Notes under the pieces: generated by a model
The model's input: the letters and a program-made list of their open reading frames with translations, nothing else
Databases searched by the model: none
What the model was told of the DNA's origin: nothing
Source of the DNA: Perkinsus olseni
Lineage: Eukaryota; Perkinsozoa; Perkinsida; Perkinsidae
Assembly: GCA_013115135.1 (NCBI GenBank)
Contig: JABANP010000060.1
Coordinates: 124,001-188,000, forward strand
DNA: 64,000 nt
Reading direction: 5' to 3'
Position numbers and translations under genes: made by a program
In this document: piece after piece, positions 1 to 64,000 of the stretch
Layout of the letters: every line of letters starts with the position of its first letter
Position numbering within the stretch: the stretch's first letter is position 1

Positions 1-934
1 ACGACAAGATACGCCGAGACGACCACTCTTGCCTGTTCGGTATGCACTCTCTCGAGGGACCTCTTGAGAGATGAATCAATCATGTCCAGCGTGTGCACCC
101 AGCAGGCATCAACAAGATCTTCTGCCCGTTTCTAATGAGTGGGCAGTGAAGTAAGGCCAACCAGTCGGTAGAGCTTACCAACTTCGACACGATGGTGGAC
201 CGCTCGTTTCCAACAACCGATTCACAGGCAGTATGCGGATGAGTGGCTGAGCGTATTCCACGGTGTATCTGATCGACCGCCGTTTTGCCGTATTTTCAAA
301 TTGAAAATACCGAAAAAATAGAAAACCAACAAGCGTCGCTGTACAATGCGAACTAGTTGCGCGACACAAACCGTGGGTGAGCTTGAAGGTAATAGCAGTA
401 GCGTGGGAAGAGCGAACCTCGAGCCAAAAAGGTTCGAACGGCGAACTCTCAGAGAACTCAAAAAAAGTCTACGAATTCCGGAGTAAATCCAAGCTTAGTG
501 CTCGCAAGTACATAGCTTGAGCGGAGAGAACCGTCGCAACAATTGTTGTGCCGGTCACTGGGCAACGCAACTAGTAGCAGGGCTTCGGTGGATAGCGTAG
601 TCGAACTTCACAACAAGGGCAGACCTTCGCAGAAGGGCAGCCGAGTGGGAAGAATCAATCTTAACGAGTAATTCACCGCTATGCAATTACACTTAAGCGT
701 AGCGCGATCGACGATCGACTACAGGGCGTAATAATCGAAGGGCGAACTACATAATAATATGGCGCACTAGCAGTGGTCAGACGATGATCATAACAAGGGC
801 GAGCGCGAAGGGCACGAACCCTACACAATACAAAGGCGAGCGAAGGAGGAGGAAGATCCTTTCAGTAAAAGGATCTTCCTCCGCCTTGTGACTGGCTCTC
901 ACACAAGGTCTATATCAAGTTGTAACTATAAGGA
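1..934. other. stretch with no recognisable gene
   Basis: No open frame here looks like a known family and none is supported by a paralogue elsewhere in the window. The only structure noted is a short hairpin near 848-882. Confidence 0.5.
848..882. repeat. hairpin, 15-bp perfect arms
   Basis: The left arm at 848-862 (GGAGGAAGATCCTTT) is the exact reverse complement of the right arm at 868-882, with a 5-nt loop. It is one of many such hairpins in the window. Confidence 0.85.
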
Positions 935-1330
935 CTAACAATCTGCAGGACCAACGAGATGCCGGACTTGCCGATTACGGCGAGTGGAATAGCCTCGAGG
1001 TTTATTCCGCGTCAGGCTGAGTAACTCAGCTGCGAAAAGCATGATGTCCCTCCCGGTCACCAGTCGCTTCAGGGGGCGCAGCATCTCTTCCGCGACTCTC
1101 TCAGCGAGCTGATTCCTCTCCCAGACAAGTTTACGGCGCCTCATATCGTAGAACCTGAACGCGAAGATCTCAGGCTGGGATTCCCAGCCTCTCTTCGAAC
1201 GGGAGCACTCATCGCTTTCATTCTTACATAGTAGCGTGTTCGGCTTGAGCCCTCGAGCTGACCTTGAACTCCTCCGACAACAAAGATCGATTAAGCACTC
1301 GCAGTCCTGACACGCGGCGCTATCCTAGGC
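935..1330 (-). CDS. open frame of about 130 codons, possible 3' end of the LRR gene
   Basis: The minus frame stays open from about 1330 to the stop at 935. It encodes a charged sequence with runs such as FAFRFYDMRRRKLVWERN and LAERVAEEMLRPLKRL, helical in character. The Met at 1144 is probably internal because the frame continues upstream of it in plausible coding sequence. It lies just downstream, on the same strand, of the LRR coding blocks at 1501-2440, so it may be the last exon of that gene. No family was recognised. The link to the LRR blocks rests on strand and proximity only. Confidence 0.35.
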
Positions 1331-1500
1331 CTTTTCCTGTCTAAAGTCGGCTCACTAGAGAACTCAGCCACCACGGCCACTGCGAAATTTGCCCTATTTG
1401 CTACCGGGCACGGAGGGCCCCAGTCCGGATCTGCGAGGTCCAAGGCTGTGAGCGACGGTAGTCTTGAAACCAGACGGAGAATCTGAGCTCAAAAGATGTC

Positions 1501-2440
1501 CTAGAGTACAAGCTTCACGCTGAGCCGTACTGTTCCTATTTCTCGCACTTCTTCATTGGCCGCTATGTTAAGCTCTGTCAAGCACTGGAGGCAACCTTTG
1601 GATTGTCCCGATGGCGGCGCCAACGAGGAAGTCAGCTCCTTCAGGGACTTATCACTAATGCGGTTTCGAGCGAGGTTCGCTCTCACGAGTGCTGGACATT
1701 GCTCTTCCAGTGCTGGAACGCCAGGAGACCATCGTGAATGCGCTGCGAGGGCACCTTACTTGTTAGAGTCGCTATAACGTTCCCTGCGGCGGAGAGCTCC
1801 TCGAGAGATATCATCTCGCCACCGAAGTCTAAGGACTCGACATTGTTGTTGTTAGCGTGGAGTTTCTTCAGCTTCGAGCCGCACAGTCTAGAAACATAGG
1901 CGGTTCCAGCGGAGGCATGCAACCGGAGTTGGAAGATTTCCTCAATTCCAACATGGTGCAGGAATTTGAGCCGAAGAAGTACAATAATCTCACCGAGCCA
2001 TTCCGTTGAGAGACACGGCGCCATTATGGTTCAAGTGCAGCTCTTCCAAGTGATGCATTTGTGCTTCGCAGTCTAGCAAAGCATTTAACGGCGTGTGTAT
2101 CTGCGATGGCTCATCGACGATGAGCTCACGAATATGCTGCATAGTAGCCTCATTATTGGATGCGGCACAGTTACCTCATTTATAGATGTTGCTTCACAGA
2201 CAGCTGTGAAGTCGAACGATACCGAAGCTATACAACCGATCATTGACTGATTTCCCGACCCCAATCAATATCCCACCTCACCAGCCACAGTTTCTGTAGT
2301 CTTGGGAAGTGGTTCACGAAAACCATCATTGAGAGCGGTGCCTCGAACATAAGCTCTAAGCTGCACACACTACTCAACGTCCCTTCACTGCTTCTTCCGT
2401 CGGATCTAACAGAAAAAGAAGAACACGGTTCAAGTCTCAC
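1501..2440 (-). CDS. leucine-rich-repeat protein gene, multi-exon or decayed
   Basis: Several minus-strand blocks in different frames encode LRR-like sequence. Near 2440-2290: FPRLQKLWL. Near 2070-2010: HLEELHLNHNGAVSLNGM. At 2024-1760: SKLKKLHANNNNVESLDF and ISLEELSAAGNVIATL. At 1686-1520: ANLARNRISDKSLKEL and CLTELNIAANEEVREIG. They follow the LxxLxLxxN pattern and the last resembles the ribonuclease-inhibitor type. The frame changes fit short introns or indels; I could not fix the splice sites. LRR proteins generally serve as protein-binding scaffolds; nothing here points to a specific partner. Similar LRR blocks occur on the plus strand at 32.7-34.55 kb and near 19.37-19.43 kb, so this may be a dispersed family. 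Confidence 0.45.
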
Positions 2441-2464
2441 CTCGTGAGAATACGAACGTCGTTG

Positions 2465-4290
2465 CTACTGTAGAGGCAGATAATGGGACGACAGAAGAGT
2501 AGACCGATGTGTACGGACTTTAATCATTGGTTTGTACGCAGAGAGCTGAGGCTCAACTCCCGCTCGGGACTCTTGTCCGAATTGGTGCTTGTAGCGCAAT
2601 AGTATTGAACACTTCAATAGATCAGAGCAACCCGAACACAGTGGAAGTAAGCACGCCAAGGTGATGGCAAGCTTGTCGAAAGCCTACGAGGGCTTGAATG
2701 AAGGGAGTGTCGAGTCTCAGACCTTCGCCGACCTTCAGAAAAGCATAGTGGGGAATATCTTCAGGCTTGAGGTAAGCCTGAGGCGCCTAGTGGGCCGAGT
2801 CCGACTCTTCACCTCTGAGAGATGATTTCTTTGACTGCAATATGAGTGATCGGTTCTCTTTCTTTTGGAGTGGGAGAAGAGCTCCAGCTCGCGGCACTCA
2901 AGAAACGCGAAGAGGTCGGTCACAGACACTGCGTGAGGGTAAGGTGAGTGAGTGACCGGCTGTGACCGCTCAAGTGAAGCTACATGGAGAAAATCTTTTC
3001 TAATGCGCGGAGTCTCCGCGGCGGAGAGCTCGATATAGTTCTGTGGTTGATTTGAGAGTGACTCGGTGGCCCTTTCGAAGAATACTTGCAAAGACACTAC
3101 AGAGAAGTACACCACAGACTTCGTCTTATGTGTACTACAGGTCTGTCGAACGGAAGACGAAGTCTGTAGTACACATTCTTCAAGGCTATCACGTGTGTGG
3201 CATCACTCCTCGCGGACGCCGACTGCGCTGTGCGTATCGAATTGACAGGCATTGCATGCTGCGCGAGGCCGATTGTTTCAAGTGCTGGTTGAGCTCGGGA
3301 CCCGAGCCTCGGGTCAATACTATTGCGCTACAGTTATTGGCGGTCCATACGACAGTCTACCCCTGTGCGCGTAGCACAAATCAATGATCGCCACACAGTG
3401 TGATAGAAATCTCCAATGGAACGAAACCGCTTTATCAGGAACCAGAGAACACAGGCAATGGCGTGCAATGCAGGAAGCATTGACCTCACCCATTAGATGC
3501 TAGTATGTCCTTCAGTGACCTTTTTTCAATATCTTCATTGCAGCCACGCTCGACCGTCATTCAGCGAGCGAAGAGCAACAAAAACTCCCGAGCACCATGG
3601 AGAACGGTTCTAATCTATACGAGCCGTGCGAATCTTGCAGATCCGAGCCTAACACGCAAGTGCTGCTGATCTAGGTGCTAATCTGTGAGCCTACAGCGTA
3701 GGCCCTACGCGGGCAATACCTGCAACAACGAAGAAAAAGGCAAGATATTACGTCACTAGCGAAGCGCCATCAGCCGGGGACTCGGGGGTAGTGTACCGAA
3801 GCTCTAGCGTGAATCACAGCGCACGCTGCGCTGCATTGGCTCAAGTCTGAGCCAAACTGCGATTGACTCAAACTTATGAGTATCAGCTGCTCGAGCAGTT
3901 CGGGAACAGCAGTCACTCGAGTGAGATACTCAGCCTTGGAACCATGAGGGAGTTAGCATCGAGCATTGACGTTTGAGACAACGACCGCAAAGCGACTGGA
4001 CCGAACGCAACACATACCTTTCACTGTAGTCTGGCTTTTCCAGAGCGACGGTGAGTTGAAAACCGCTGAGTTCTAACAATGAAATAAGAGACGAAAAACC
4101 TGTGGGGTGCGTACTCGAGAGAAGGATGAGGAGAGTAGGACAGCTACACTCTGCTTGAAAGCTTGCTTCAATCGGTGCATTACAGGGCATGTTCGTTTAG
4201 GCCTTTGAAGAACGGCTAGTACAAAATACCATAACGCTTTCACAGATACCCCAAAGCTCATAGCAGATGAATGAAGAGTTAAAGATGTCA
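2465..4290. other. gene-poor stretch with an interlocked inverted repeat
   Basis: Open frames here (for example minus 2735-3115 and plus 3043-3387) have no recognisable domain and no paralogue in the window. A complex inverted repeat lies at 3111-3176. The part just above 4190 is the conserved 3' flank of copy A, also seen after copies B (15.45-15.78 kb) and G (35.88-36.2 kb). Confidence 0.45.
3111..3176. repeat. interlocked inverted repeats
   Basis: CAGACTTCGTCTT is followed by ATGTGTACTACAG, and after a short spacer come AAGACGAAGTCTG and CTGTAGTACACAT. Both arms are therefore copied in inverted orientation within about 65 bases and share sequence at the junction. This layout is hard to get from a simple inverted duplication and suits more than one template switch. 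Confidence 0.75.
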
Positions 4291-4313: not shown

Positions 4314-6060
4314 TCATGCTATCCACTCGAAAGCCGTAAGTAGGGTTGGACGCCCACCAGAGCGGCTTTCACTTGTAGTGTAGACGAAAACACGATTGTC
4401 TGGATCCTCGCGGATTGCCAATCCTGATTGTCTGCCGATATTGAACCTAACAGATAAGCAGCTTATCATAAGCTTTCCATTGCGACATAAGTTGATGCGC
4501 ACCACAGCCATCGGCAACGAGAAATATGGCGTTAAAATCAACGGTTGAAGTCTCGCCAGCTGACTACAGCTCACGCACCCGTCGCTTTCAGCTGCTTCAA
4601 GTATGATTTGTGGTACCACTCTGCCGCCTCGACGCATAGCCAGAGTGAGGTCTCTTGATGGGACAAAGCCGATCCTCATCGTGCTTTCCGGCCTGAATCG
4701 AAAGGCAAGTGGGTCATTGGTGCGGCGAAGAAACCGAGCGACTCACCCTCTGAAGAGTATCATGACATCTCCATTACTCAACCCCGCCATGTCGACAGGG
4801 GAGAAGCCGCCATCAGACTGAATGAGAACAGAAAGCTCGAGCGGATAATTCCCGCGGCCGCGAGAAGCGTAAGTAGTCCATCGGGCATCCACTACGGGAA
4901 GCCTAATGCTGCGTCGTCGATATACGAGACGGGAAATCAGGCTACCTCCACCGAGAAACGAGTGGGAACACCCTCATCATATGCAAAGGCGGGGTAGACA
5001 TTGGGATCGCTGTTCGTAGGATCATTGCAGATCATGAGGAGGTATTCAGGGAGGAGTCGATTTGGACCTATAGTGAGACACTCAGGCCAGGCCGCCTGAA
5101 TCAGGCGGTATTCACTTGCCCACTTACGCATTTTGGTTAAAGCTTGCGGCCCGTTCACGCATTCGTCAAGCAGCTCAGATATGTCGATATCAACACTCGT
5201 ACGTGAACGGACTCCGACAGGGTACCTGAAAATCATCTGCAAGCTCGCCGTGAACACACTCATTTTTGCCTTTCGGCCTATGAGCAATGACCGCCTCATA
5301 CTTGAGCAACCTCCTTCCCCTTGCGAAACTAACAAACAGCTCTCCCCTTCCTTCACCCGGATAAGCGCCGTCGATGGTTAAACCTCGGGGATTACCTGAA
5401 GCATACTCCAGTCGAGTAGCGGTTGCTATCTGGGATCAGACTAAGCATTGAACAGTTCGGGTGACAAGCTGTTCGAAAAATCATAAACTGTATATCGATC
5501 ATCAGAGAAATGACGACTGCTAGTAGCACTGTGTCATCACTCACCATCCAAATCGGTATCGGAGTCTCCTAAAAACGGTATGTTCTCTCCATCAGGATCA
5601 CGCATCGGGTATATCACTGCTTCGGACACATCAAACTCATCACCGAGAGTCTTTTTCCAGGCGCATGGTGAAGAATAATCTGACAATGAATGAAACACAA
5701 ACGTTTGCGTCCACCATAACAAGCCACCGTCCGATCAGTAGAAGACTCACGCATCATCGTTGATGGCGAGAAGTTCAGAGCCGTCCGATTTCACAATTAT
5801 CGAGCTGATCTCATCGAATTGTGAACGGGGCCCCACGGCATTTCGGATTTCGACCGTCTGAATATGCTTCAGCGTGCCTGAGAGTCGAAGTTATTGCTAT
5901 CAGTATGGTCCCCAGTGGCGGCCCTACCTGAAGGAGAGATGAAGACATCGCGTGGGTTCCCATTCTGGAAAGGTAACCTCCTCTGTTGGATACTCACAAT
6001 GTCTCTCTGGCTGGCAGCTACGCTCAGAATACTCGCGAAGAAGGCCAAACGGGTGAACAT
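4314..6060 (-). pseudogene. copy A of nine-exon secreted propeller-like family, one frameshift
   Basis: Nine exons on the minus strand follow the family model: 6060-5928, 5877-5751, 5679-5545, 5395-5302, 5225-5128, 5067-4946, 4817-4747, 4692-4579 and 4446-4314. All introns can be given GT/AG ends. The start MFTRLAFFASILSVAASQ is a signal peptide; the protein would end in AFEWIA. Exon 3 is 135 bases against 134 in copy B, with an extra A in an A-run near 5660 that brings an early stop. Every other exon is in frame, so the total minus one base is exactly 342 codons. The lesion may be a recent mutation or a sequencing error in a homopolymer. Subfamily I (with B and G). For likely function see copy B. 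Confidence 0.7.
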
Positions 6061-6526: not shown

Positions 6527-6557
6527 ACTAGGAACTTCCTACTAGGAAGTTCCTAGT
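6527..6557. repeat. hairpin, 14-bp perfect arms
   Basis: ACTAGGAACTTCCT at 527-540 of the sixth kilobase is followed by ACT and then by its exact reverse complement up to 6557. It lies in the 5' flank of copy A. Confidence 0.8.
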
Positions 6558-6645: not shown

Positions 6646-6649
6646 ACCA

Positions 6650-7959: not shown

Positions 7960-8867
7960 AAGGTAGACGGGCTGTTCAGTAAACTTCTGATAAAACTATT
8001 CCAGAACTACAGTATTTCGATCAGTAAGATCAAATCTGTAGTTCTCAGAATCAATTATCAGAATGCATTCCCGTATTTCAGAACGAGTTCTAGGATCAGT
8101 TCCGAGATGTGTTCAAAGAACTCAATTCTGAGAATCGATTCTCAGAATAGATTCCGGCTACCAACTTGGCGATATTCAGAGCTGCGATCCGTTTTTTTCG
8201 ATGCGCACGCCGCCCGCTAGGCTATAACAAAACTCCGGCAAGCTTCATTCGAGTAGTCTAGTGCGCTAATCGGTTGCATCGTCACTCGTACCACCCAGGT
8301 TCGATTCTTGCCAGCGATTGCCTTGGTACTACTAGTGATCTACCAGCGGTAGATCGACGCCAGCGAAATTCACCGAGCAGAGGTTCAATCCCTGGTGAAT
8401 GGATCGGGCGCGTGTACCAATAGGTGATGCAAATAAGTGGTGCGAGCTAGGGGCAGAGCCCCGGAAGACGATTTGCTCTTGAGGCACGAAGTCGAGCGGC
8501 TCAACCCAACCACTCCCTGGATGCGGAGGTAGGCCACAGAAATCCAGCCATTCACAGATTGTAGATGTTGATGGGCTAGCTTTCAGTGACCTACTGGATA
8601 ACCGCAACAACTGCATGTTGTTGTCGGGCATCCACCTCCCCCAACCTCTGCATCATGGGAATTTCGTTTGGATGGGCATCCCGAAATTGGCCGTCCTCAG
8701 CTGTGATGTCACGCGCCGCGAAACTCTAAGCAAAGGTTTTACCTATTCCGAAATAACTCATTCTGGAGTGCGTTTCAGAACCGATTCGAATTTCACTGAA
8801 CATGTTGGGAACCGATTCTGGAACCCATTCCAGAATCTGTTCTGGATGCAGTTTGCTGAAAACGATT
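7960..8867. other. AT-rich repeat-like stretch, no gene
   Basis: Many short inverted motifs built on TTCTGAGAATC, CCAGAATCTGTTCTGG and related words occur at 8.0-8.16 and 8.74-8.86 kb, and the latter resumes at 9.86-9.92 kb on the far side of the hAT element. This looks like an older repeat into which that element inserted. No coding sequence is supported. Confidence 0.5.
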
Positions 8868-9851
8868 CAGGGTGCTCCGCCGTTGGAAAGAATGGTTGGG
8901 TGGATGGAAAAATGGGAAAATACAGAAAAATACGGCAACAATGGAAAAATATGGAAAAATTTTTCGCGTTAATCTTGAATCCATCGGGTTTGCGAGTGTG
9001 CGAAGGAAAGCTGAACTTGCGAGACGTGCCCACAAATCTAATTCACCCTATGAGTCTCACAGTAATCGCTGAGCGCCGCTCAGTGAGCGGTTCTCGTGGA
9101 ATGCATTCATGTCCCCGGAGAGCCACCTCGTACATGATTTGACCTGGAAGTCTGCCGTTCTAATCTTGCGCTCTTGTGAAACGCCACAGTCCAAGTATTG
9201 GAAACTTCGCTAGATCTTGCAAGAACGCAAGATCGAAATGTTGTTTCTTGGTGGGCGGTGCCCACTGGGCACTGCCCAGGGCACCTCCTCCTCCTCCTCA
9301 TCCTCCTCCCTCCAGGGTCCTCTGGTGACTCTTTTGAACGTGTTGCTGTTGTCGGCGGATGTTACCCCTTGTGCGTAGCCACGAAGTCGACAACGGTAGC
9401 CGTTACGGTCGATATGTCCAATTCGTTCTTACGCGCGCCAATCACGTCTATTCCATTCCTGTGGGCGACCATCCATTGTGGGAATATGCGAATGAAAGAG
9501 AGGAAAGGTCAACTCAGAACTCATTGCCCAGCACGTCGGATCTCTGGGGGAAGAGCAGCCGTTGGAGTTGAGAATGCGTATTTTGTATGAGCGCCCAGTG
9601 TCGGCGCGTTGCGTTGCAAATCGCAGTCTGTCCCCCGATTTGCGACACCAGTGGCGAAGATTCTACTGCCAAGCCTCCGGTTCCCACGCTTTGGCTTACG
9701 GGTGGGCCGAAAAACGGTTCTTTGGGTGGATTTCCTGTGGTTTCACGTTATTTTGCTATTTTTCCATATTTTTCCACCATTTTGTTGCGGCAGGAAATTT
9801 TCCGCAGGAAAGATTGGGAAAATAGAATTGCTGCCATTTTGGAGCACCCTG
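8868..9851. mobile_element. hAT-type non-autonomous element (984 bp) with TIRs and 8-bp TSD
   Basis: Both ends carry the 11-bp inverted repeat CAGGGTGCTCC, at 8868-8878 and (reverse complement) at 9841-9851. The element is flanked by the perfect 8-bp direct repeat AAACGATT at 8860-8867 and 9852-9859. TIRs starting CAGGG and an 8-bp target duplication are typical of hAT transposons. Below the TIRs both ends have inverted A-rich motifs (GGAAAAATATGGAAAAA type). No transposase is visible, so it would need one supplied in trans. The open frames inside it (for example plus 9198-9590) are not supported as genes. Confidence 0.85.
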
Positions 9852-9859
9852 AAACGATT

Positions 9860-10829: not shown

Positions 10830-12200
10830 ATAGCCTCCATAAGACGGTTAAAGGCCTTTCAGCGCTTCAGGTCCGTCACGACCTTGTAGAGATGGGTGGG
10901 TATTCCCCCGGCCACCCCCTTCCGCGCAGGTGTCAATGACACCGTGTCAAGAACAGACACGACTGCGGATAGCGGCGGAAATCCCTAATCGGGGAACCGC
11001 AGCCACACTCCGGGGAGATAGCTAGGTCGCAGCGGAAACGAGTCCATGCGCAGGGGTCATAGCCCGACCGAACACCACAGCACTGGCCGCCGGAGTAACT
11101 TCCCTGCGGATCCAGAACGATGCCGGGGAGACACAAAAGAAGATCTCCTTAATGGCGGTTCCCGACTTGGCTCGCTCATCAGACCACTAGAAACGGGTGG
11201 CGATGCGCATCTGCTCCTTCAAGTATCGAGTGAGGGTTCGACCACTGACGCATCCCTCAGCATTCACCTCCGAGAGGCTTCCGCCTTGGGCCGCCAGCTG
11301 GTCGGGACCCATTGACTTCGACTTCGGAGTGCCCTGGGACCCAGTGCGACCGTACTATCTCGGTGAGTCCTCGAAGTAGGATGGCAATCTGCCTTGTCTT
11401 CTCCCATTTCTGGGTTCCGGATCGACTTGCCAACTTGTCCTCAAAACTGCTTGAAGAAGAAGATGAAGAAAACTCCGTGAAGATCTCCGTGATGAGGTCC
11501 TCATCATTAGGAGGTATTTCTCCTTCTATCTTGCCACTTGCTCACTAATTACGAGTACGATGCGGCCGAGGAACTTCTCCATGCAAGGAGTTCCGTGACA
11601 GAGGATGCTGTTCACGTAGTTACCCTACTGAGATAGCACTCGGAGCACAATCAGTGTAAGTGGGTCGTTGAAGGTTACGCCGCAGGATTTAGTTACCTAA
11701 TAAACACCATCCGATGACACAGTATTGAAAACATTCTCTCCAACGTTCGTTATAATTGGTTGACACGTATGTTCCAGGAACGCGGCAACTGCCGAGGCTT
11801 CGACGTGGGCGGTCTCATGAAATGCCGGTCGGCCCCCTCGGACGCTTTGACTCTCTACTAACAGCGGCGGATTCAGGTAATCCCCAAGCCTGAGGCCAAC
11901 AAGGGACTCTTGTAGTCGCTTTTCGTGTGAGGCCCAAATCATGTTCATCAATCGTCGACTGGCCTGTTAGTGCTCCTACAAGTACTGTGCAAGTCCCTCA
12001 CGCGGGCATTCCCAACCTCAATTTGAGGTCCTTGGGCCTCACTCAGTTTTGAGGTCCTCAAAACTGAGTGAGGCCCGCAATCTCCTCGCGTATGCGTGCT
12101 GCACGCAGCGTGCAGCCTACTGATGAGGACATAGTCGCCTGCTGCAAGGCAGCAAATCGTGACATATTGTAACTAATGGTGCACGCACAGAAATTCACAG
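10830..12200. other. stretch with no recognisable gene
   Basis: Frames such as plus 11046-11315 and minus 11697-11951 (84 codons) are open but match nothing I know and have no paralogue here. A long palindrome sits at 12034-12076. Confidence 0.4.
12034..12076. repeat. perfect palindrome, 21-bp arms
   Basis: The 21-base arm at 12034-12054 is the exact reverse complement of 12056-12076, with a single central T. It is followed by further short inverted words (TGCTGCACGCAGCGTGCAGC). Confidence 0.9.
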
Positions 12201-12420: not shown

Positions 12421-12959
12421 TTGAAGAGAACTTTTTCTCTTGCCCCAATGGGGAGCATGTGGACGTGTTGTCCTCTCGCTACGATAGTCGATAGTGGGAA
12501 ACCCGTAAAACAGCTGTCTGTCTCTCAGCCTTCTGAAGAATGCGGCATTCTGAATGCCCACATAATATGTATCGGTCAACACCCACGTTGAAAATCGGAG
12601 GATTTCGTTCACCTATCCACGTGTGTGGTGCGTGTTAACTTCTCCGACGGAGAATCTCCGTACAGATTCTACGGCGAGCATGAAGTTCTTTGTTAGCAAC
12701 AATCCTTTAAAAGGCGAGCGGTCTCCGATAAGCTAGCTTCGCTGCGTACTCGCGTATCACGATTAGCTGTAGAAGGACTAGCGAATGATTCATTTTGAAT
12801 CGCCGAGTTTTTGTCGGACGATGGAAGAAACTTCTAGGCTTCTGAGTTTGCTTCTGAAAGCACGGATTGACTATCAGATGTCAGCTTTATGAATGGCGAT
12901 TCGACGTCAATTGTTGCAGAACACTCGCTTCGACCCTGGTCGGTGAGCGTTGGTATACC

Positions 12960-35290: not shown

Positions 35291-35303
35291 GAATATGATA
35301 TTC

Positions 35304-38824: not shown

Positions 38825-38829
38825 GCGAA

Positions 38830-48049: not shown

Positions 48050-48080
48050 GCTGCTCTTGGCAAGAGCAAGAGCCTCTTGC
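48050..48080. repeat. hairpin insertion in D flank
   Basis: D and E read CTGCTCTTGGCAAGAGCAAGAG then CCTCTTGCTC where C (near 43.27 kb) has only CTGCTCTTGCTC. The 20 extra bases are made of CAAGAG and its reverse complement CTCTTG. Confidence 0.85.
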
Positions 48081-48494: not shown

Positions 48495-48697
48495 CCCCCT
48501 ATACGCATCAAGTTCACAGAGAACCCGGAGGGAGGAGGCCGTGGGAACGGATTACCGGAAGGAACGACCTAGAGACTGAACCTCAGAGTCAAAAGCCGCA
48601 TCACACCGACCGTGCAGCCAACCGTTGGCTGCCAACGGGACATGGCCATTTCCAGGGTGTCGCGAGTAAGAGGTACTCGCAGGTCTGACCTGCCAGG

Positions 48698-50505: not shown

Positions 50506-50513
50506 CTTCCAAC

Positions 50514-51648
50514 CAGGGTTGTCCGAAAGCGGAAACCGCCCGCTTGGGCGGAAATTTCCAACGGAAATGGGCCAGATTTCCGGAAATTTCCGGAAATCTG
50601 GGAAAAGGAAAATTTTTTCTTAAACTTGCTCGATCTTGCGATCTCACAATGTTATCGATCACTCGGCCGCGCGCTAGGGCAAAGAAGAGCTCAAAAAGAA
50701 TGGTCAAATGCACTTTCCTAAGGACTCCTTAGTGAGGAGAAAGTAATTTTCCTGAGGAGGAAAAGGGTAATTCCCAAAATCTCCTTACGAAAACTGTGCT
50801 GCGACTGTGCAATGAGCACACTTTTCAATGATACGATTGAATTGTGAGAGCTTTGAGTTTTAGTGATCTCGATCATGATCGAGTGATCATGATCGAGTGA
50901 GGTTCATATTCTGGTACAGCGTCGAAGCATTGCGTTTGGATTTCGTAGGCTCAAAAGCCTCGGTGTAGTCGAGCCGTAGCCTACGTGGAGAGTCTCCACT
51001 GGAGACTGCTATGCTGAAGACTTAGTAACTAATAGTAAGGAGAGGGTGTCTGGGAGTTTGGGAGAGACTCTCAAACTCGAGACTGTCTCGGATCGATAAC
51101 TGACGAGATTCTATGCATTTCAGCAGTCTTCGATTCACTTCATCTTAGCATGGTCGGATATGCCTCCGATGTAATCAGCGCCATATTTGGGCGTCCTTGT
51201 GATGGAATCGAAGCCTTTCAGCCTATCAGCCTTGGAAGGATAGCCGAAATTAGCATTGAGCCGGTGCACGCACACTCAGTCAGTATTACTGATCATGTCG
51301 AGCTGCATTTTAGAAACGTCTCCTAACCGAGTCGTTGTCGCCTAACCGTTGCGTTGAGGCTCGACGATTATACGGTAGCGGAAGGAAATTCCTACTAGGA
51401 ATTCAGAGCTAGAATAATGTTCTGGTCTTCATATGATTCATATTTAGTCTGATAATCAGAGTCTGATTATCTTGTTATGATGCCAAATACTTCGGAAAAA
51501 TCGCGAAAAAAGTGCAATTTTCTTCGGATTTTTTTCAATTTCCGCAAATTTCCGTGAGCTACGGAAATTTGCTTTAGTGGAAATTTGGAAATTTCCTCGG
51601 AAATCTGGAAATGGAAATCTGGGGAAATCGCGGAAACCGCGAACCCTG
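50514..51648. mobile_element. hAT-type non-autonomous element (1135 bp) with 8-bp TSD, absent from the sister unit
   Basis: Starts CAGGGTTG and ends GAACCCTG, and is flanked by the perfect 8-bp direct repeat CTTCCAAC at 50506-50513 and 51649-51656. The second duplication unit has the empty site with a single CTTCCAAC at 59097-59104, continuing directly into CATGAATGCC. Both subterminal regions are full of GGAAATTT-type words in opposite orientation. No transposase. The open frames that span its edges (such as minus 51456-51710) are not genes. Confidence 0.92.
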
Positions 51649-52057
51649 CTTCCAACCATGAATGCCAATGCTGGCAATCCTGCCTCCGACCCCGAGCGTA
51701 TGGGCGGCAACTCAAGCGAATACTCATCGAGTTACCGAATCGAATAACGAGAGAGAGACGCACGGATTACCGATTCGGACACGACTCCTCCCACCGAACC
51801 TTAGTCGTAGCTGGCCCAGCTGAGCTGCGATCGAGGATCCATACTAGGAGTGTATCTTTTTTTCAAAACGAGCGACTCTCGATGGAGAGGAATCTTCGCT
51901 GTGCAGAGCATCTCGGTCTTATCAGAAGACCCAGTCTTCTCGGTCTTCAAGATTGGACCCTTCCCGAAACCCTGCTGCACGGCCCTCCTCGAGACGCCGG
52001 ATCGATAAGCCGCCCCCACTTAGTGAGTGGCACCTACCCGGGCTATTCGCGATAAAG

Positions 52058-52995
52058 ATAGAGGGTGCTCGATAAACTGATTCTCAGAAACACAGAATCA
52101 ATTCTGGAATGGATTATGAAACGTGAACCGATGCGAGTTTGAGCATATATTGATTGGACAACTCCTGCGCCTACATTGTAGACTCTATAACCAGATTATG
52201 GATCTCGTGCCGGAAAGCTTTCTCGGGAAAGGTTTCGAGTTGCATGTGCGTGATGCTCTTGGACGTCGCAATACATGGGGCCATGTCATGGTCGAACAGG
52301 TCTCGCAGGTGAGAGGTCGCAGCACGAATGATCTTCGTGTCGCTGATCATTATCAGCAACATTGTTCTCCACAATAATGTAGTTCCTCATACGCGAAGTT
52401 GATTTCTCAATATCAGGACCTGGAAAGCAGGCACGCGGCTGGCCTGACTCTTTCTCTCCAACTCGGTGTCCCTATCACGATGATCGTGACACCGTCCCCG
52501 TGCCTTAATGGTATCTTCACTCGCGGTTATGATGAGATCACATTCACTTACGATATCCCGGTATATCACAGTGATATACTCTGTGACGGAATAAGCGACC
52601 TTATAGGCCAAATGGACTCTTCGATGGTTTGGAGGGGATTCCTCGACTACGTGACAGACTGTCACTGACAGTGAGTCCGCTAGTGCACGCGCGTCGTACG
52701 ACAACATCCCTGATTTATCGACAGTCCGAGGAAGGGAGGCGAACAGCCGAGGCGTTGGGCGGCCCATTGATCGGCCGGCCGGCCCGAGATGAAGTTTGCT
52801 GCGATAACGTCCCTAGTAACCGTTAACTTTGGCCGAGATGATTGCGAAGCCTACCTCGTTTTAGACAACAGTTGTCTACCTCTCGCCGGTTCCTGTTAGT
52901 AACCGTGCGTATACGTGCCGGGTGTTCATTCAAGGTATTCCATTTGTTCATCGCAACGAGGTTATGCTGATTGGTGTGTTCTGAGCGTGATTAGT
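52058..52995 (+). repeat. upstream cassette of copy E
   Basis: Begins at the junction GATAAAGATAGAGGGTGCTC, lacking the first about 115 bases of the C and D cassettes. Contains the 89-codon frame 52399-52668 discussed under the D cassette. It differs from D at many positions, unlike the downstream part of the unit. Confidence 0.6.
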
Positions 52996-55267: not shown

Positions 55268-56740
55268 AGCCTCGCCAGCTCGCCATTTTCTCGTCTACGA
55301 ACTCGAGCTACTGTATCATCGCCATTTCTCAAGAGGCTAACATGAACATCAGACATTTCACCGGGGGATCCTGAAATGTCGAGCGATCACTCTCAAACTG
55401 AGTGCGTCTCAGACGGCTATATCCTCGCCCGGTGTCTTACATCTGCGAGAGATTTTTCCCCTATCTCTTCTTATTTCATCATCATAACCGCTTGGAACGA
55501 TTCGTTTGCTGCCGCTCTGGATAAGCCATTGCAAAAGCTTTTGCAGGTTCAATCCGTTGCGTTCGGTCTATTTGCCAATAATAATAAGTCAATAATTTTA
55601 CATCGATCACGATGCCTGCACTCTACAGCCCTCTAAAACGCGCGGACCTTCGCCCGACTCGATCGGCAAAACCGTGGGAGAGTGATCGGAGGTCGGAGCG
55701 ATACCACGCGACGCGAGTCACGAATTCGCTGCAGCTAAGCACGCGGCCCGAGCAACACGCCCGGCGCCACGAGACAGCGCATCGTGACGCGATCGCCAGA
55801 TCGCCTCAGTCTGGCCGCCGACTGCGCCACGGCTCCGGAGAAACGGCCGTGGACGCACTTCGCTGTACACGACCTACGGCCGTGGGCAGCGCGCAAGGCG
55901 GCACACCTGGTGTGCCACACCACACAAGGGTATCGTGAGACCAACCCGGGTGGAGCGGGCTGGGTTTTTTTAAAAGAGAGAGTGCATAAAACTCAAAGAA
56001 ACCTAACAACAAGCGCAACTCACGTTCCAAAGGAAGCAAGACACACCACCTAAAGGGGGAGTGCTGGAACGCCCCACTAGCGTCAACGCTATGGATCATC
56101 CGGGCGCGCGCTACCGCGCCCGACCCTCGGTGCCCACTGCGTCGGCTCAGTGCGCATTTTACCCTGCTGAACGCTCTTCTGCGAAGATCCTTCATCTCAA
56201 ATAGAAGAAGTACTGTATTGGTCGAAAACCCTCAAAGCGAGCGCTCAAACCAATTGTTTGAGCCATTATTTCTCACGAATTGGAGACTCGAATTTCGAGT
56301 CGCTTGTTCGGCGCCGTTATGATGGTAGCAATCCTGGATGGGGAGAGCATGAGTCATACCGGCGGCGTGACGCCGCGTCAGCGAACACCACGGAGAAGCA
56401 ATGCGCGATAAGACGTACTGACAGTACGTCTTTTCGTCTTGACGTCAGTATGGTACTGTTAATATTGCAGAGCTTCAACGAAGTTCAATGCTGGGGCATG
56501 AAACTCTGATGGAATTGGACCGACGGAATTGCAGTGGATGAAACGGCACAAGACAGAGAGATGGATCAGATCACGACATAAACTCATGTGCAATAACCGA
56601 ACTTCGCATTGAGCTTCTGATTAGTCACCCATGGAGGATTATTATGGTGCTTTCAAGCGTCGCAATTGAATTGGACAAGCACTACTTCTTGCTGCTCTTG
56701 GCAAGAGCAAGAGCCTCTTGCTCATTTGCCAATTCCTTCT
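55268..56740 (+). repeat. 3' flank of copy E with the 574-bp insertion
   Basis: Nearly identical to 46.63-48.10 kb, including the insertion (about 55633-56206) and the CAAGAG/CTCTTG hairpin. No independent gene is supported. Confidence 0.6.
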
Positions 56741-57096: not shown

Positions 57097-57299
57097 CCCC
57101 CTATACGCATCAAGTTCACAGAGAACCCGGAGGGAGGAGGCCGTGGGAACGGATTACCGGAAGGAACGACCTAGAGACTGAACCTCAGAGTCAAAAGCCG
57201 CATCACACCGACCGTGCAGCCAACCGTTGGCTGCCAACGGGACATGGCCATTTCCAGGGTGTCGCGAGTAAGAGGTACTCGCAGGTCTGACCTGCCAGG

Positions 57300-57962
57300 T
57301 CAGCATCGACGCCGTGAGCCGAGGCAGCCCGCCTGCAAGTTGCCGACGCTACCTTTGGAAGGAATATATACCAGCTCAATGGTAGCCTTCAGGTTGCTCA
57401 GACGCCTCGTTACGAGCTGGGTCAAGTCACAGACGGAGTGTCGATTTCCTGGACTTGTCGTTAGCCGATCAATCGCCCTCTTGCAGTCCGTGAGAACACG
57501 GATGTGACGTTCGGGATTCTTCATCCGAGATCGAGTCGACTCAGCAGCCTGGAGGATGCCGACGAGCTCCGCTTGTACAGGAGTGGTGTGCGGTGGCGAA
57601 CTGAGACCTAGTAATGACCAAGTACCTCGCCTATTCACCCATGCAACGGCACAGCCTGCACAGCGTCCTGGAGTCACGGTTACATCACAATATACCTCCA
57701 CCGTACCGCAGTTCAGGGTAGGATGCTGTGCTCCCACACTCAGGAAGGACATCTTGGGGTGAGATGCCGAATCCAGTGGGCGTTCAACGGGGAACGAACC
57801 CACAACATCCCTGGCGATGTGCCGAATTGGATGCTGCTCGAAGAATTCGGGCCACTGAACTCTTCGCTTCACACACAAAGATGGGCACAACTTGTGCCTA
57901 TCTTTGTGTCGCACAACTTGTGCCGCACAAGTCGTCCCAGGGAGTGCACTGGGGACCGACAC
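57300..57962 (-). pseudogene. LINE RNase H domain, unit 2
   Basis: Identical to unit 1 apart from one residue (TIELVY for TLELVY). Same D-E-D residues and same loss of the late His. Confidence 0.75.
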
Positions 57963-58002: not shown

Positions 58003-59500
58003 AGCGCGCTTTTAGAGCTTCAAGCTCTTAGAACTTCGGAGTAATTCGATTATGAAACGTTGGATAGTTAGTTAGAAAAACCGATAGTTCAAGTATCACA
58101 ATTGCCACGACAAAGAGTACACATCAGCACTCTGAACTTCAGAGTCTGAATGACTTTGTGACGTTACTATAACGATTCATTGAGTGACATTGTCAATTGC
58201 TGCGCATTGGCTCGATGCCATTACGGATCTGATCCGCCGGATCAGCACTCAGCGGGAAGCTCGAAACTAGACTAGGTCGTCCAGTTTGACTGGGGAATCC
58301 CCAGTGGGGATCAACAGTCACCTGCTTCCCTCGCCCAGTTTGGGCTCCAAACCAACATTGCCCTAAATTAGGGCAATGCTGGTTTGGGCCCCTAATACAT
58401 GCTACCATCAGCCGTACGGTGACCGTACGGACCGTACAACGGTCTCAGCCAATGGCTGATGGCTGACAGCTATCAGTCGCACTCTCCTATCTGTATCACT
58501 GGTGATAGTAATACGTGTACCTGATGCACTGTATTAGTACAGAGCAACGCAGATCCTTCCCATCTCAGATAGCATCGTAGCAGATGGCAAGGTCTACAAT
58601 TTTAGCTCCCGACCGGAAGCCTTCGACGTGAACGATGGGCGTAGACCGCTGGAGAACTTTGAGAGAGCACTTCAAGCGCCATTACAGGTCCGGTGCGACC
58701 ATTTGTCACCTAAAAAATGCCCATTGCGCAATGAATGAAATTCATTGTAATCAGAAATAACACCTGCTGCTGAAAGAAGTTCCCTGCACCTCGCAAGCTG
58801 CAAAACTCAGTTTTGAAAACTGCGATCTCGGGGTGAAACCTCAGAAATAGTCACCACAAAGTCACTTAAACCAAGACCGGCCTCAACGCATCATGTACCT
58901 CACAGCAGTGATCGCTCAAGTGCAGTGATCCCACGGGAAGCATATTGATTCAATATTATTATAGGGCGAAGAGCTGCGGACGAGCCGGTTCAAGAAGAAG
59001 CTCCGTAAGACTACTGCAGAACTTGAGGCACCAAGCACTTGCGAAAAGGATGGATGTGGTACTCGAGGAATTGTGCTAAGCCGTGACCGCCCAGGGCTTC
59101 CAACCATGAATGCCAATGCTGGCAATCCTGCCTCCGACCCCGAGCGTATGGGCGGCAACTCAAGCGAATACTCATCGAGTTACCGAATCGAATAACGAGA
59201 GAGAGACGCACGGATTACCGATTCGGACACGACTCCTCCCACCGAACCTTAGTCGTAGCTGGCCCAGCTGAGCTGCGATCGAGGATCCATACTAGGAGTG
59301 TATCTTTTTTTCAAAACGAGCGACTCTCGATGGAGAGGAATCTTCGCTGTGCAGAGCATCTCGGTCTTATCAGAAGACCCAGTCTTCTCGGTCTTCAAGA
59401 TTGGACCCTTCCCGAAACCCTGCTGCACGGCCCTCCTCGAGACGCCGGATCGATAAGCCGCCCCCACTTAGTGAGTGGCACCGACCCGGGCTATTTGCGC
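58003..59500. other. second copy of the 49.4-52.05 kb stretch, with empty hAT site
   Basis: Nearly identical to unit 1 but lacks the 1135-bp hAT element (empty site at 59097-59104). No gene is supported. Confidence 0.6.
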
Positions 59501-60500
59501 TTCTCGCTTATCTTGGGATTGGCTGTGGTATCCACCATGGGGTTCAAAAACGGTGAGAGGCGCCTTCCACTGAAAGCGCAAGCATGAGAGCGAATGAAAG
59601 AGCCCCAGAGTCCAGCCTGGACTAACCACCTGAGGCCCAACTACCTAACCACCAGGCTTTGTTTGTAATGCGTTGGTCTGGACCCTTCTGCAAGCTCCAC
59701 GGACTGTCCGTGAAGTGTCCCGGAGACGGACACTGCGTCCGTGTCCGTGACGGACATCGCCTGTCACCGCAGTGACAGCTACTGCTTCGCAGTGGCAAAG
59801 CAGCTTTACCGCAGTAGATAACTTCAAAAACTGCTAGAGTCGTCACTAGGTAACCACGACGTAGCAGCGAGCCGGGCCTGTTGAAGATGCCCTGTTCTTC
59901 GCAGTTCCAAGTTGGCACCGTTTGGACTCAACTGCGATCCAGAATTTTTGTACTGAGGTTGAAACCCACTGCAAAGGGAGATGGTCACAGATCGACCTCA
60001 GTATACTAATTGCCAATGGGTCTTTGGTGTCATTAATGAACTCCTCATCGAACGTTACACATTCACGGTGAATGATTCGCCTCAGTATATTCATTGGTGT
60101 CAGCGTCAATGGGTACACATCCAATGCTTTCGGTATCCAAATTGGATAATCCAATCGGTTCATACTGACGGCTAAGCTAAAACCATCATAACGGTCGGAA
60201 GCGAGCTCATCGAGGATGATTGAGAGTGCGCGTTACCTAGGGTACCGTATAGGATATTCAGGAAGGGATCGTACCCGACCATCCCCCCCTGCCCCTCGTA
60301 TCTCACAGAGCGAGTATCTTTCAGTTTTCCTTAGCGCGAGTGATGAGAATTGTTCTCAGCTTGATGCTCACTGTGACCTCGCAACACGCTACTCGATCGG
60401 ACGAAGCACGTCTGAAAATGGGAATTGAAGAATGCAAACTGGTCATGATTAGAGCGATTTGGATGAAATATATGAGTAGAGAATAATATGTGCAGACTAC
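59500..60500. other. stretch without supported gene
   Basis: Unique sequence with short inverted words (GGACACTGCGTCCGTGTCC near 59.73 kb, GCAGTGACAGCTACTGC type near 59.77 kb). The last 100 bases correspond to the H1 3' flank. Confidence 0.4.
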
Positions 60501-60502
60501 AA

Positions 60503-61468
60503 CTACGGAGTAGAAGGGGAGTATTTAGTACAAATGGATGGACCACACAACTGATCACCGCCTTTGCAGACCGGTACGTGCAACCACCATTTACAATAGG
60601 ACTCACCATCCGTCGGTGAAGGATTCTGGTCTTTGCAGTAAGCATCACAGTTGACGTCAGGTCCGGAGTGACGGTCCTGGGGCGTGACTGTGCCCGGGGA
60701 CTCCCCAGTACTGCAGTAGCTCGGGCCGTACTGTTGATCACCTCCACGACAAACGGGTTCTGAATCAGAACTTCTGATCTCCACCATTTGCAATAAGAGC
60801 TGTCGTCATTCAATGACTGACAGTAGGAATCGCAGGGCGCCGAGTGATGAGGATGACCACTGACTTCGTCTACTGGGGGAGGGGGAGCCTGTGGGGCCGG
60901 CCAGTCTTGCGATTTGCACTCGTCAACGTCGCCGCATGCCTGGTTGCCGTCCTTACACACTGGTACATCCAACCACCACTTACAGAAGGAGCCCTCGTCG
61001 TTGTTCATGCTCTGGCACATCACATCGCACTCACCATAATAGAGGCCATCACCTTCGGGTCCATCTGGGCTGATGCTCTTGTTTGGCAATTCGCAGAGAC
61101 TCTGGGTCCCGCAAGGTTGATCCCCACCAATACACACAGCGTATTCTAGCCACCATTTACAATAAGAATCTTCATCATTGTTCATCACTTGGCAGTAGCG
61201 GTCACAGTCGCCCCTGATCTGGTTGATGTTGAGCCCTATTGATGGTGTTGATGTCGTTGTAGTCGTCGCTTCATGAGCAACATATCCGGGATTGGCGATG
61301 GGTGGTATGTCCCCTTTGCCACAGAGCGGGCCGGCCGGAGTGCATTTCATCTCTCCATCGAGTACAACCATACAGGTGCTTGTCGCACCATTGTGGTACC
61401 GACAATAATCATCCCAATTCCTCCCCTGAGATCGCACGGCCGACAAGCATAAGATGGACTGGTCTCAT
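60503..61468 (-). pseudogene. H2: broken copy of the cysteine-rich repeat gene
   Basis: Closely similar to H1 in repeats and linkers, but disrupted twice. First, 26 bases of the signal-peptide region are missing after ATGAGACCAGTCCAT, which puts the start out of frame. Second, a 14-base insertion at 60764-60777 makes an ATCAGAA...TTCTGAT hairpin and shifts the frame in the third repeat, just after YCKWWRSE. The fourth repeat continues in another frame to the stop at 60503. A downstream Met (MSAVRSQGRNWDDYC, 61446) could restart the protein without its signal. Probably non-functional. Confidence 0.85.
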
Positions 61469-61995: not shown

Positions 61996-62019
61996 CCTAC
62001 CTTGGATGAGAGATCCTCG

Positions 62020-63000
62020 TTCACCCGAATCGGGTGACCCGATGATACCGAGCGAACACAGCGCGTATTCAGTCGTACATTCTCACGTGACGCTCAACTC
62101 GAGTTTCTTCATTCCTTCATCAAGTCTCTAATCAGAGGGTGCTCACTGAACTTATTCTAAAACTCAGAGTCAATTCTGGAATGGATCTTGAGATGTGACC
62201 CGATTCGAGTTAAATAATTCGTTTACTGAACAACCCCCTCGTTTACGACCCAGATCATGACTCTCGCGCTCCTCGACGAAAAGATTTCGAGCTGCACGCG
62301 CGTGATGCCCGTCCGCACGGGTGTATCATGTATGTATCGTGACGTCACAATACATCGTCGCAGAGCTCTCGCAGGTTGGATTGTCGCAGCATGAAGATTC
62401 TTCCTGTGGTTGGCCCCTATCAGCTACATTGTTTTCCACAATAATGGAGTTCCTCATACGCGTCATTGATTCCCCAAATCTAGAGCCTGGAAAGCAGGCA
62501 CGCGGCTGACCTGAGTCTTACTCGCCAATTCGGTGTCTCCAGCACGATCCAAGTGCCCTAATGGTATCCTGACTTACGGATGTGATAAGATCACATTAAA
62601 TGTAAATGTGACACATTTACTTATGATATCCAAGTGCCTCACAGTGATGTACTCGGTGGCGGAAGTAGCGACCTCATTGGCCGAATGGACTCCTCGATGG
62701 TTTGAAGGGGTTCCTCGCCTACGTGACATTGAATCGGCGTATGCACGCGCGTCGTACGACAAAATTCCCTGATTTATCGGCAATACGAGGAATAGAAGCG
62801 AGAAGCCGAAGCGCTGGGCGGCCCGCCCGCTGATCGGCCGGCCTGCCAGAGATGAAGTTTGCTGCGATAACGACCCCTGGAAGTCCGTTAACTTTGGCCG
62901 AGGTGATTAGGAAGCCTACCTCGTTTTAGACAGCACTTGTCTACCTCTCGCGGGTTCCTGTTAGTAACGCCGCGTATACGTGCGGCGTGTTCATTTATGC
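62020..63000 (+). repeat. upstream cassette of copy F
   Basis: Homologous to the C cassette. It has two extra hairpins: TTCACCCGAATCGGGTGA near 62021-62038, and AAATGTAAATGTGACACATTT near 62597-62617, which breaks the small frame that is open in D and E. Confidence 0.65.
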
Positions 63001-63042
63001 TGCCCAGCACCTCCCTAATGGTATCCTAATATTCTATCCAAC
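63001..63042 (+). repeat. 37-bp minisatellite upstream of copy F, single unit
   Basis: One unit (CACCTCCCTAATGGTATCCT) ending in AATATTCTATCC, about 205 bases before the copy F start. Confidence 0.85.
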
Positions 63043-63247
63043 CTCTTTATTTGAGGTCTGACCGATCGTGATCGTTGAGAGGTGTCAGCAGTTGATAGGC
63101 TTCACTGTGGTCTGCAGGCAGATTTGGAAAAACGTTTAGTTGAACTATCATCATCACAGGCGCAAGCGACGTAACCCCATCGCTCCGTTCGGCTGAGAAG
63201 GATGTAGAGAACGTCCTCTTTAGTTTTTTTTGCTTCGTATTATAATC

Positions 63248-64000
63248 ATGTCTATCCACTCAGTCTTCTTTGCAGCCGTTCTCGGGTCAGTGGCCTGCCA
63301 GGAAAATATCGTCAGGCTCCTCCAGAGGAGGGTACCTTTTCAGAACGGGAATCCTCGAAGTATCTTCATTTCCCCTTCGGGTGAGTGGAAGAACGGGTAT
63401 TTCCCTTCCGTCGATTGTCTCTCGGTATTAGGCACACTGAGGCTCATTCAGACCCTTGAACTCGAGGACGCGGTGTCCACAACATATACGCAGTTCGCAG
63501 AACTGAGTTCGATGCTCGTGACACCGAATGGCGATGAAATACTCGCCACCAACGACGATGGGTGAGGCACGGCTGCCGATCAGGCCCTGGCTGTAGGTAA
63601 CCGATTCGATTGTTCGTTGTCAGATTATTCGTGCGCATGGAGCTCAAGGCGACCTTCAATGATCAATTTGATGTCTCTGAAGCCATTATATCCCCGATGC
63701 GCGATCCCCAAGGGGACCGTATTACAGAGGAAGACGACTTAGGTGAACATTGCTCACCATTGCTAGATTTCCATGCATCTCCCGGAAGTGGATGATAGAC
63801 TGTCAATGTTCGCCATTTCATTCAACCTCTCCCTATCGGCAGCTCGTGCATTCTTTAGATACTGCCCGTGGTTTGGCCATCGATGGTACGTATGGTGGCG
63901 GAGGTAGGGGAGAGCTATTCGTTAGTTACTCGGAGGGCAAGAGGATGCTGAAGTAGGTGAAGATGATTCAACTCAATTCCACAAACTCTGCCATGTGTTA
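63248..64000 (+). CDS. copy F of the nine-exon family, 5' part only (window end)
   Basis: Exons 63248-63380, 63432-63561, 63624-63742 and 63859-63952 are in frame; the rest lies outside the window. Signal peptide MSIHSVFFAAVLGSVACQ. Exon 3 is 24 bases longer than in C, D and E (ITEEDDL before the donor GTGAAC), closer to subfamily I in length. The apparent stop TAG at 63953-63957 falls inside intron 4 (donor GTAGGTG), so it is not a lesion. Exon 2 ends LATNDDG in place of LGTDEDG. Confidence 0.7.

Follow-up and report, generated by a model that had tools for sequence, protein, structure and literature searches.

Palindromic 14-bp insertions in the Perkinsus olseni genome are very probably excision scars of hAT-superfamily DNA transposons

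In a 64-kb stretch of the Perkinsus olseni genome (the window: bases 124001-188000 of contig C557, which is 188,728 bp long in a genome of 61.48 Mb), duplicated sequences repeatedly differ by short palindromic insertions built from the adjacent bases. Here, we report that these insertions are very probably (about 0.92) excision scars, or footprints, of DNA transposons of the hAT superfamily. Most of them obey a single rule: an 8-bp site y1..y8 has become y1..y7 followed by its full reverse complement (8 bases) and then by y2..y8, i.e., a net gain of 14 bp. hAT transposases duplicate 8 bp of target, and at excision they nick one base into the flank and leave hairpin-capped flanks. We favor hAT excision because of the unit of eight bases with its offset of one, the T2/A7 preference of the targets, the resident elements with 8-bp duplications, and the hAT domains encoded in the genome; these, together with the statistics of the product and one pair of filled and empty sites, are observed. 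The kind of scar is itself known; what is new in P. olseni is the scar density and the near-uniform product. We found no account of hAT scars in Perkinsus in the open-licence literature, judged by titles and abstract openings.

Briefly, the window was scanned with unit lengths of 6-12 and offsets of 0-3, with two block-shuffled sequences and a reverse-not-complement form as controls. Length 8 with offset 1 gave 55 exact copies, and none in either shuffle or in the reverse control; units of 7 or 9 bp with the same offset gave no exact copy in the window, and the remaining combinations gave 0-4 exact matches each. At up to two mismatches there are 128 sites in the window (reverse control, 1; both shuffles, 0), which after removal of overlaps become 123 sites occupying 4.2% of the window, 68 of them with one or two mismatches besides the exact ones; at three mismatches the count is 171, as against 3 and 2 in the shuffles. 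Please note that at up to two mismatches some other combinations also exceed their controls (length 10 and offset 3, 84 against 0; length 8 and offset 3, 128 against 41 and 21.5), which we reason to be partial views of the same scar sites. A 50-kb stretch of Escherichia coli held no exact scar and two with three mismatches.

The same pattern is found elsewhere in the genome. Twenty stretches of 10 kb from 20 other contigs (C3 to C193 in steps of ten, a nonrandom choice, all counted) bring the sequence scanned for scars and recognized elements to 264 kb and contribute 39 exact scars and 86 at up to two mismatches (reverse control, 0 exact and 2 at up to two mismatches; shuffles, 0 and 1), with at least one exact scar in 14 of the 20 stretches. 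The counts in the window and in this sample bear out the high density that had been claimed in an earlier reading of the window from its letters alone (the sequence-only reading). Simple scaling gives ~12,000 exact scars in 61.5 Mb, for which a hand estimate from the between-stretch spread gives a range of roughly 4,000-20,000; the window is ~4.4 times as dense in scars as the sample. Once identical copies are dropped, 89 distinct exact scars remain of the 94 in 264 kb, which rejects a single mobile hairpin family and agrees with the sequence-only reading, where the sequences were seen to differ at each site. In the 89 distinct targets, T at position 2 or A at position 7 accounts for 78 of 178 positions, against a background of 24.3% (p = 1e-8). 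nTnnnnAn is thus a preference of the scar targets and not a requirement; it is also the target consensus of the house-fly hAT element Hermes (excerpt of PMC2803484). An assembly or library artefact is unlikely, since five exact scars are common to both copies of a 97% identical duplication and the 68 sites with one or two mismatches look like mutated scars. Introner elements were set aside because the scars are 14-bp additions.

Gaps between paralogues lead to the same structure by another way. Eleven alignments were chosen out of 46 self-matches of at least 150 bp, with tandem and redundant ones excluded, and they comprise 92 gaps and 1,056 substitutions over 16,661 aligned bases. By length, 40 of the gaps are of 1 base; the numbers then fall, before a peak of 16 gaps at exactly 14 bp, all of which obey the scar rule (eight exact, six with one mismatch, and two with two), i.e., one 14-bp scar per 66 substitutions. 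Nineteen of the 26 gaps of 10-60 bp obey the rule at up to three mismatches (shuffled inserts: mean, 0.25; maximum, 2 of 26). In a first census on filtered self-alignments, in which some gaps go back to a single event passed on to several copies, the rule at this tolerance covered 21 of 34 gaps of 8-60 bp, and 17 of the 18 gaps of 14 bp obeyed it. The comparison proposed with the sequence-only reading, i.e., each 10-60 bp insert against the reverse complement of its flanking 50 bp, with 200 shuffles, turned out as that reading had expected: matches of at least 6 bases occur in 19 of 26 gaps (shuffles: mean, 5.2; maximum, 11) and of at least 7 bases in 14 (mean, 1.27; maximum, 4). At 8 bases or more there is no clear excess (2 of 26; mean, 0.35; maximum, 2), as expected from a matched arm of 7-8 bases. 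The seven gaps outside the rule include one 20-bp variant; as a group they have no clear inverted-match excess (one of seven at 7 bases, mean 0.47; three of seven at 6 bases, mean 1.8).

The paralogous pairs named in the sequence-only reading were aligned individually, those of its gene A (14.43 and 15.2 kb) being covered through the gap analysis of self-alignments. Its claim that neighboring sequence supplies the hairpin-forming insertions by which paralogues differ holds with more regularity than was claimed: nine of the 13 named sites (60757, 38764, 38809, 62022, 46109, 14428, 19885, 19930, and 20085) are canonical, with 0-1 mismatch per 22 bases. At 62.60 and 48.06 kb there are 20-bp variants of this structure; the site at 15.19 kb is a longer hairpin with a 1-base center, one that does not fit the 22-base rule, and the one at 54.80 kb proved to be a local mutation cluster, neither canonical scar nor 20-bp variant. 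This cluster (54800-54835 versus 46145-46190) is nearly length-conserving in otherwise 97% identical copies, does not obey the scar rule, does not look like a simple inversion by eye, and is possibly a real template switch.

Elements of a kind that could leave such scars are still resident. In the examined sequence, three elements have CAGGG...CCCTG ends between identical 8-bp flanks (8868 and 50514 in the window, referred to as elements 1 and 2, and L048:6990), whereas flank lengths of 7, 9, and 10 bp gave none, 6 bp gave one, and reversed ends gave none. Please note that the end search required CAGG ends and that the element at 8868 was first found without that requirement; when only CAG ends were required, the 8-bp count was 10, hardly above the control of 6. 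Searching for 8-bp repeats together with long terminal inverted repeats returned one strong element of the three, and the CAGG-end search returned all three. Their short terminal inverted repeats begin with CAG (CAGGGTGCTCC, CAGGGTT, and CAGGGTGGTTGA), a start typical of hAT terminal repeats. These three of five elements were found by requiring identical flanks; two further copies of element 1 (C291 and C300) were not selected by their flanks, and both have perfect 8-bp duplications, CGTAGATC and ATGGCGTT.

Element 2 provides the filled/empty pair. It adjoins the 97% identical duplication (44940-50500 and 53586-59103), which resumes beyond the 1135-bp element; CTTCCAAC is present twice, once on each side of the element, and once in the other copy. 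Over 5,517 aligned bases and 106 substitutions, these two copies show no scar difference, only the adjoining element insertion. The bases to the left of the element (50494-50513) form a hairpin-type join, which may have arisen if one chromatid lost this element by excision and regained it by copying from the other. Exact scars also lie within elements 1 and 2, so scar formation is a layered process. In the genome at large, PF05699 (hAT dimerisation domain) has at least 21 matches, all over the Pfam cut-off, and one open reading frame (ORF; L015) carries DUF4371 and Dimer_Tnp_hAT in one open frame; transposase domains are known from there, elements 1 and 2 being too short for such a gene, and four ORFs of the window gave no Pfam family. 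Two other length differences were seen among these paralogues: a 39-bp gap between the 97% identical copies (48280-48318), which is not a scar, and a 573-bp insertion in two of three paralogues (about 46992-47564 and 55634-56206), with no 8-bp duplication visible by eye at its ends.

We propose the following route to the scar. Insertion of an element would duplicate 8 bp (y1..y8). At excision, the transposase would nick one base into the flank and the 3' end of the flank would attack the other strand, giving a left flank hairpin y1..y7-y8'..y1' and a right flank hairpin y8'..y2'-y1..y8 (primes denote complements). If these hairpins were opened at some distance from the tip, one unfolded 3' strand would carry rc(Y) and the other Y, so that the two could pair over exactly 8 bases; annealing, flap trimming, and gap filling would then give y1..y7 + rc(Y) + y2..y8. 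In the scars, the palindromes centered on y8' and y1' are both present and share the inverted copy. The ability of the two 3' strands to anneal over exactly 8 bases would account for the uniform product, and we infer that opening away from the tip with annealing of both duplication copies is the dominant repair route. A bolder extension, which we offer tentatively and with rather more doubt than belief, is that through this route nearly every hAT excision leaves the same 14-bp insertion, making such excision a main source of medium-sized insertions in this genome and recording thousands of jumps with few elements left, possibly by efficient removal of insertions. At the extreme, and by analogy with other alveolates, such removal might possibly be performed by a domesticated or developmentally regulated transposase.

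Departures from the uniform product were sought in the 264 kb with a model of hairpin-derived bases of any length. Ninety-four exact cases have 8 added bases, and eight longer inserts fit (9, 14, 16, 17, and 26 bases; four are of 14 bases, one of them a duplicated copy); the 9-base case lies in a simple repeat and was discounted, leaving seven exact longer variants, one a duplicate copy. We interpret the rare scars that hold two partial inverted copies as products of direct end joining between both opened hairpins, and the 26-base insert runs 11 bases past the duplication. Outside scars, there are 21 hairpins with arms of at least 10 bases and a 1-base center, and 5, 0, 1, 6, 2, 0, 3, and 0 with loops of 0 and 2-8 bases, respectively. 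It seems from the direct-join variants and from these 1-base-center hairpins that hairpins were opened at various distances, often past the duplication. Very long hairpins (arms of 15-30, 1-base center) lie outside the variant-scar model at 18216, 12055, and 22095 and at L046:8755.

Several points weigh against hAT excision or against the repair step proposed here. We found no site that carries an element in one copy but a scar in the other, the only pair being filled versus empty. Recognized elements are far rarer than exact scars in the 264 kb (three against 94), so that most scars have no recognized source family, and elements with other ends would escape detection. In the reports cited below, the footprints that hAT elements leave in yeast, plants, Candida, and human cells differ in how many bases are added, so the uniformity in P. 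olseni would need a special repair step; the expected heterogeneity is not what we found, with 94 exact scars of one length versus seven exact longer variants. Fits with at most 4 or with 6 added bases do not exceed the reverse control, and there are none with 5 or 7, i.e., short footprints (0-4) are indistinguishable from background. The 21 long hairpins with a 1-base center include mutual copies, three direct-join variants, and one simple repeat. A sequence search of solved structures with the transposase ORF gave no match at E 0.01. For Ku there was one match, weak and partial (28.3 bits against a cut-off of 25), and the genome encodes a DRMBL domain of the SNM1/Pso2 type (64.2 bits); end joining is therefore not evidently lost, and its loss is not established as the reason for uniform scars.

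The sequence-only reading had attributed the insertions to replication template switching, in which the polymerase copies back a short nascent or opposite-strand stretch and then resumes. Such switching can give a direct-inverted-direct structure and is known in apes (excerpt of PMC7954356) and yeast (PMC8604942), and individual odd sites such as that at 54.80 kb could be template switches. As a general explanation, however, we find it unsupported and very improbable: it prescribes no fixed length, offset, or target motif, whereas here 8 bases with a 1-base offset dominate and nTnnnnAn is preferred; the non-scar gaps, only seven in number, show no clear inverted flank excess; and the 8-bp duplications of the resident elements, which match the scars, would be left unexplained. 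The great-ape events are likewise inverted copies of nearby sequence, but of variable length (median, 12; MAD, 4.5; maximum, 128; 4,017 unique events) and without a target-duplication rule in the excerpt of PMC7954356. Still less credible, and the least probable of the alternatives, are small inverted triplications that arise when the processing of Okazaki flaps fails (FEN1/Rad27 type). They have the same DUP/IN/DUP topology, but in the excerpt of PMC13334657 they have medians of 148/160/148 bp, 30-bp spacers, and broad sizes, i.e., they are about twenty times larger than the 7/8/7 arrangement without spacer seen here.

Several cut-and-paste families make hairpins or footprints, and another hairpin-forming superfamily (e.g., Transib/RAG-like) could be imagined as the source of the scars. 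We consider this highly unlikely in view of the 8-bp unit with its 1-base offset, the residents with CAGGG ends and 8-bp duplications, and the presence of hAT domains (domains of other superfamilies were not searched for). A closer alternative retains hAT excision and differs only in the repair step: the transposase or a dedicated nuclease would nick the hairpins exactly where the duplication ends on its outer side, and not at any point beyond. The uniform product, with 94 exact cases of 8 added bases and none of 5 or 7, is what precise nicking would give; the direct-join variants, however, show openings at several distances (in one case 19 bases from the tip), and outside scars there are 1-base-center hairpins with arms of 10-30. 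Precise edge nicking is accordingly the less likely course, although it deserves more weight than the other alternatives.

Among known systems, the footprints of the maize hAT element Ac/Ds resemble the P. olseni scars in that palindromes are centered on the complement of the element-bordering base and the duplication is partly retained, but their added bases vary: in the excerpts of PMC5873905 and PMC1978519 there are 28 footprint types in 128 Candida albicans revertants with arms of at most 3, arms of up to 20 in yeast (Saccharomyces cerevisiae), and one Arabidopsis site where 11 of 17 share one common short footprint. In contrast, nearly all recognizable P. olseni scars hold one full inverted copy of the 8-bp target. 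Kat1, a domesticated yeast hAT, cuts mostly 1 nt from the end repeat and makes a flank hairpin (excerpt of PMC4763223), and Hermes shares the 8-bp nTnnnnAn target; both, however, represent the biochemistry of other proteins, and the P. olseni transposase ORF is unmatched among solved structures. TcBuster in human cells also leaves inserted bases complementary to the flank, ascribed to hairpins, but in the excerpt of PMC3499496 the inserts are of a few bases with deletions of up to 50 bp, and these come from a plasmid assay and not from natural genome-wide scars.

The scars also bear on genes. Stop-to-stop frames of at least 300 codons cover 11.9% of the sequence and hold 3 of 162 scars (at most one mismatch), and frames of at least 150 codons cover 29.3% and hold 31 of 162; this rarity in long open frames suggests either selection or biased insertion. 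Such an insertion has broken at least one gene copy, in line with the gene decay put forward in the sequence-only reading: for a cysteine-rich protein gene that has relatives in Perkinsus, the second copy (60331-61446 versus 37725-38882) is shifted out of frame at the scar at 60757. The ORF there and the annotated protein P0004 (FOZ60_013426) include residues read as scar-encoded, departing from the first copy; P0001, from another strain series, is without these residues and may correspond to either gene copy. The scars thereby offer a direct mechanism for gene decay, besides explaining most gaps of 10-60 bp between the aligned paralogues (19 of 26).

Reporter assays, the usual way to study excision footprints, yield some dozens at a time. 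In P. olseni, they are readable by a simple alignment-free pattern search, as a natural record of possibly thousands of independent repairs of hairpin-capped breaks, which V(D)J recombination produces as well. The scars could date transposition and show which repair product an alveolate makes. It is suggested here that inverted-insertion signals ascribed to template switching be checked first for a fixed 8-base unit.

Table 1. Elements, target-site duplications, and scars in the window; all features are without strand assignment (.).
Feature	Position	Target or duplication	Remark
left target-site duplication, element 1	8860..8867	AAACGATT	
hAT-like nonautonomous element 1	8868..9851		984 bp; ends CAGGGTGCTCC / GGAGCACCCTG
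right target-site duplication, element 1	9852..9859	AAACGATT	
extra copy left of element 2	50494..50505		y1..y7 (CTTCCAA) + five bases complementary to y8..y4 (GTTGG)
left target-site duplication, element 2	50506..50513	CTTCCAAC	
hAT-like element 2	50514..51648		1135 bp; ends CAGGGTT / AACCCTG; not in 97% identical paralogue
right target-site duplication, element 2	51649..51656	CTTCCAAC	
element 2 empty site in paralogue	59097..59104	CTTCCAAC	single; without element, without scar
exact scar	3006..3027	CGCGGAGA	
exact scar	3293..3314	GCTCGGGT	
exact scar	4453..4474	GATAAGCT	not in paralogue
exact scar	6535..6556	CTTCCTAG	
exact scar	9069..9090	CTGAGCGG	within element 1
exact scar	9258..9279	GTGCCCAG	within element 1
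exact scar	12093..12114	TGCGTGCA	
exact scar	12537..12558	AGAATGCC	
exact scar	12640..12661	TTCTCCGT	
exact scar	14428..14449	GCCGAAAG	not in paralogue
exact scar	15964..15985	AATGACGC	
exact scar	16003..16024	CCGCCGAG	
exact scar	17216..17237	GTTGGAGT	
exact scar	18916..18937	ATGACGGA	
exact scar	19547..19568	CATACGTG	
exact scar	19885..19906	CGATCCGC	not in paralogue
exact scar	19930..19951	GGACTGAT	not in paralogue (alignment shows two 7-bp gaps)
exact scar	20085..20106	TTGCGTGC	not in paralogue
exact scar	20816..20837	ATATAGAT	
exact scar	22745..22766	CGCTTAAG	
exact scar	23148..23169	GGGTGGAT	
exact scar	23337..23358	ACGACAAG	
exact scar	25481..25502	GTGAGCAC	
exact scar	25771..25792	GAGTCCGC	
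exact scar	26187..26208	GGACCGAC	
exact scar	28517..28538	ACCCCCGG	
exact scar	28604..28625	GAGCGCAC	
exact scar	28725..28746	GAGCCACT	
exact scar	29842..29863	CTCAGCGC	
exact scar	31305..31326	ATTGTGAT	
exact scar	33493..33514	GAATAGAT	
exact scar	34482..34503	GAACCGAG	
exact scar	35370..35391	CGTTCAAC	
exact scar	35659..35680	GCCAGTGG	
exact scar	36228..36249	GTTCCGAA	
exact scar	37155..37176	GCGTCAAT	
one-mismatch scar	38764..38785	TTCTTCTG	not in paralogue
exact scar	38809..38830	TTGCGAAT	not in paralogue
exact scar	42897..42918	CGGCGTGC	inside 43-bp gap between paralogues
exact scar	43816..43837	GCTCAATG	not in paralogue
exact scar	43900..43921	TCACGATC	not in paralogue
one-mismatch scar	46109..46130	CTCAGCTG	not in paralogue at 41.88 kb
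exact scar	47259..47280	GCACACCA	common to 55901
exact scar	48616..48637	AGCCAACG	common to 57218
exact scar	48679..48700	GCAGGTCA	common to 57281
exact scar	49688..49709	CTGGGGAT	common to 58290
exact scar	50198..50219	CAAAACTG	common to 58801
exact scar	50985..51006	GTGGAGAC	within element 2
exact scar	52651..52672	GTGACAGT	not in paralogue
exact scar	55901..55922	GCACACCA	
exact scar	57218..57239	AGCCAACG	
exact scar	57281..57302	GCAGGTCA	
exact scar	58290..58311	CTGGGGAT	
exact scar	58801..58822	CAAAACTG	
exact scar	60134..60155	TATCCAAT	
exact scar	60757..60778	GTTCTGAT	in reading frame of second cysteine-rich gene copy; not in paralogue
exact scar	62022..62043	CACCCGAT	not in paralogue
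direct-join variant scar	22171..22198	CCCTCTTC	two partial inverted copies
direct-join variant scar	35290..35329	TGAATATC	inverted part extends 11 bases past target duplication
direct-join variant scar	48053..48080	GCTCTTGC	not in paralogue at 43.27 kb
direct-join variant scar	56694..56721	GCTCTTGC	duplicate of 48053
direct-join variant scar	62591..62618	TCACATTT	not in paralogue

Two other features of the window are recorded here. Arrays of a 37-bp tandem repeat are located at 40310-40482, 44534-44781, 53118-53371, and 12972-13105, within or adjoining duplicated cassettes. The region 24001-30000 is GC-rich and purine-skewed, and near 28.8-29.1 kb it holds tandem repeats of 55 and 82 bp.

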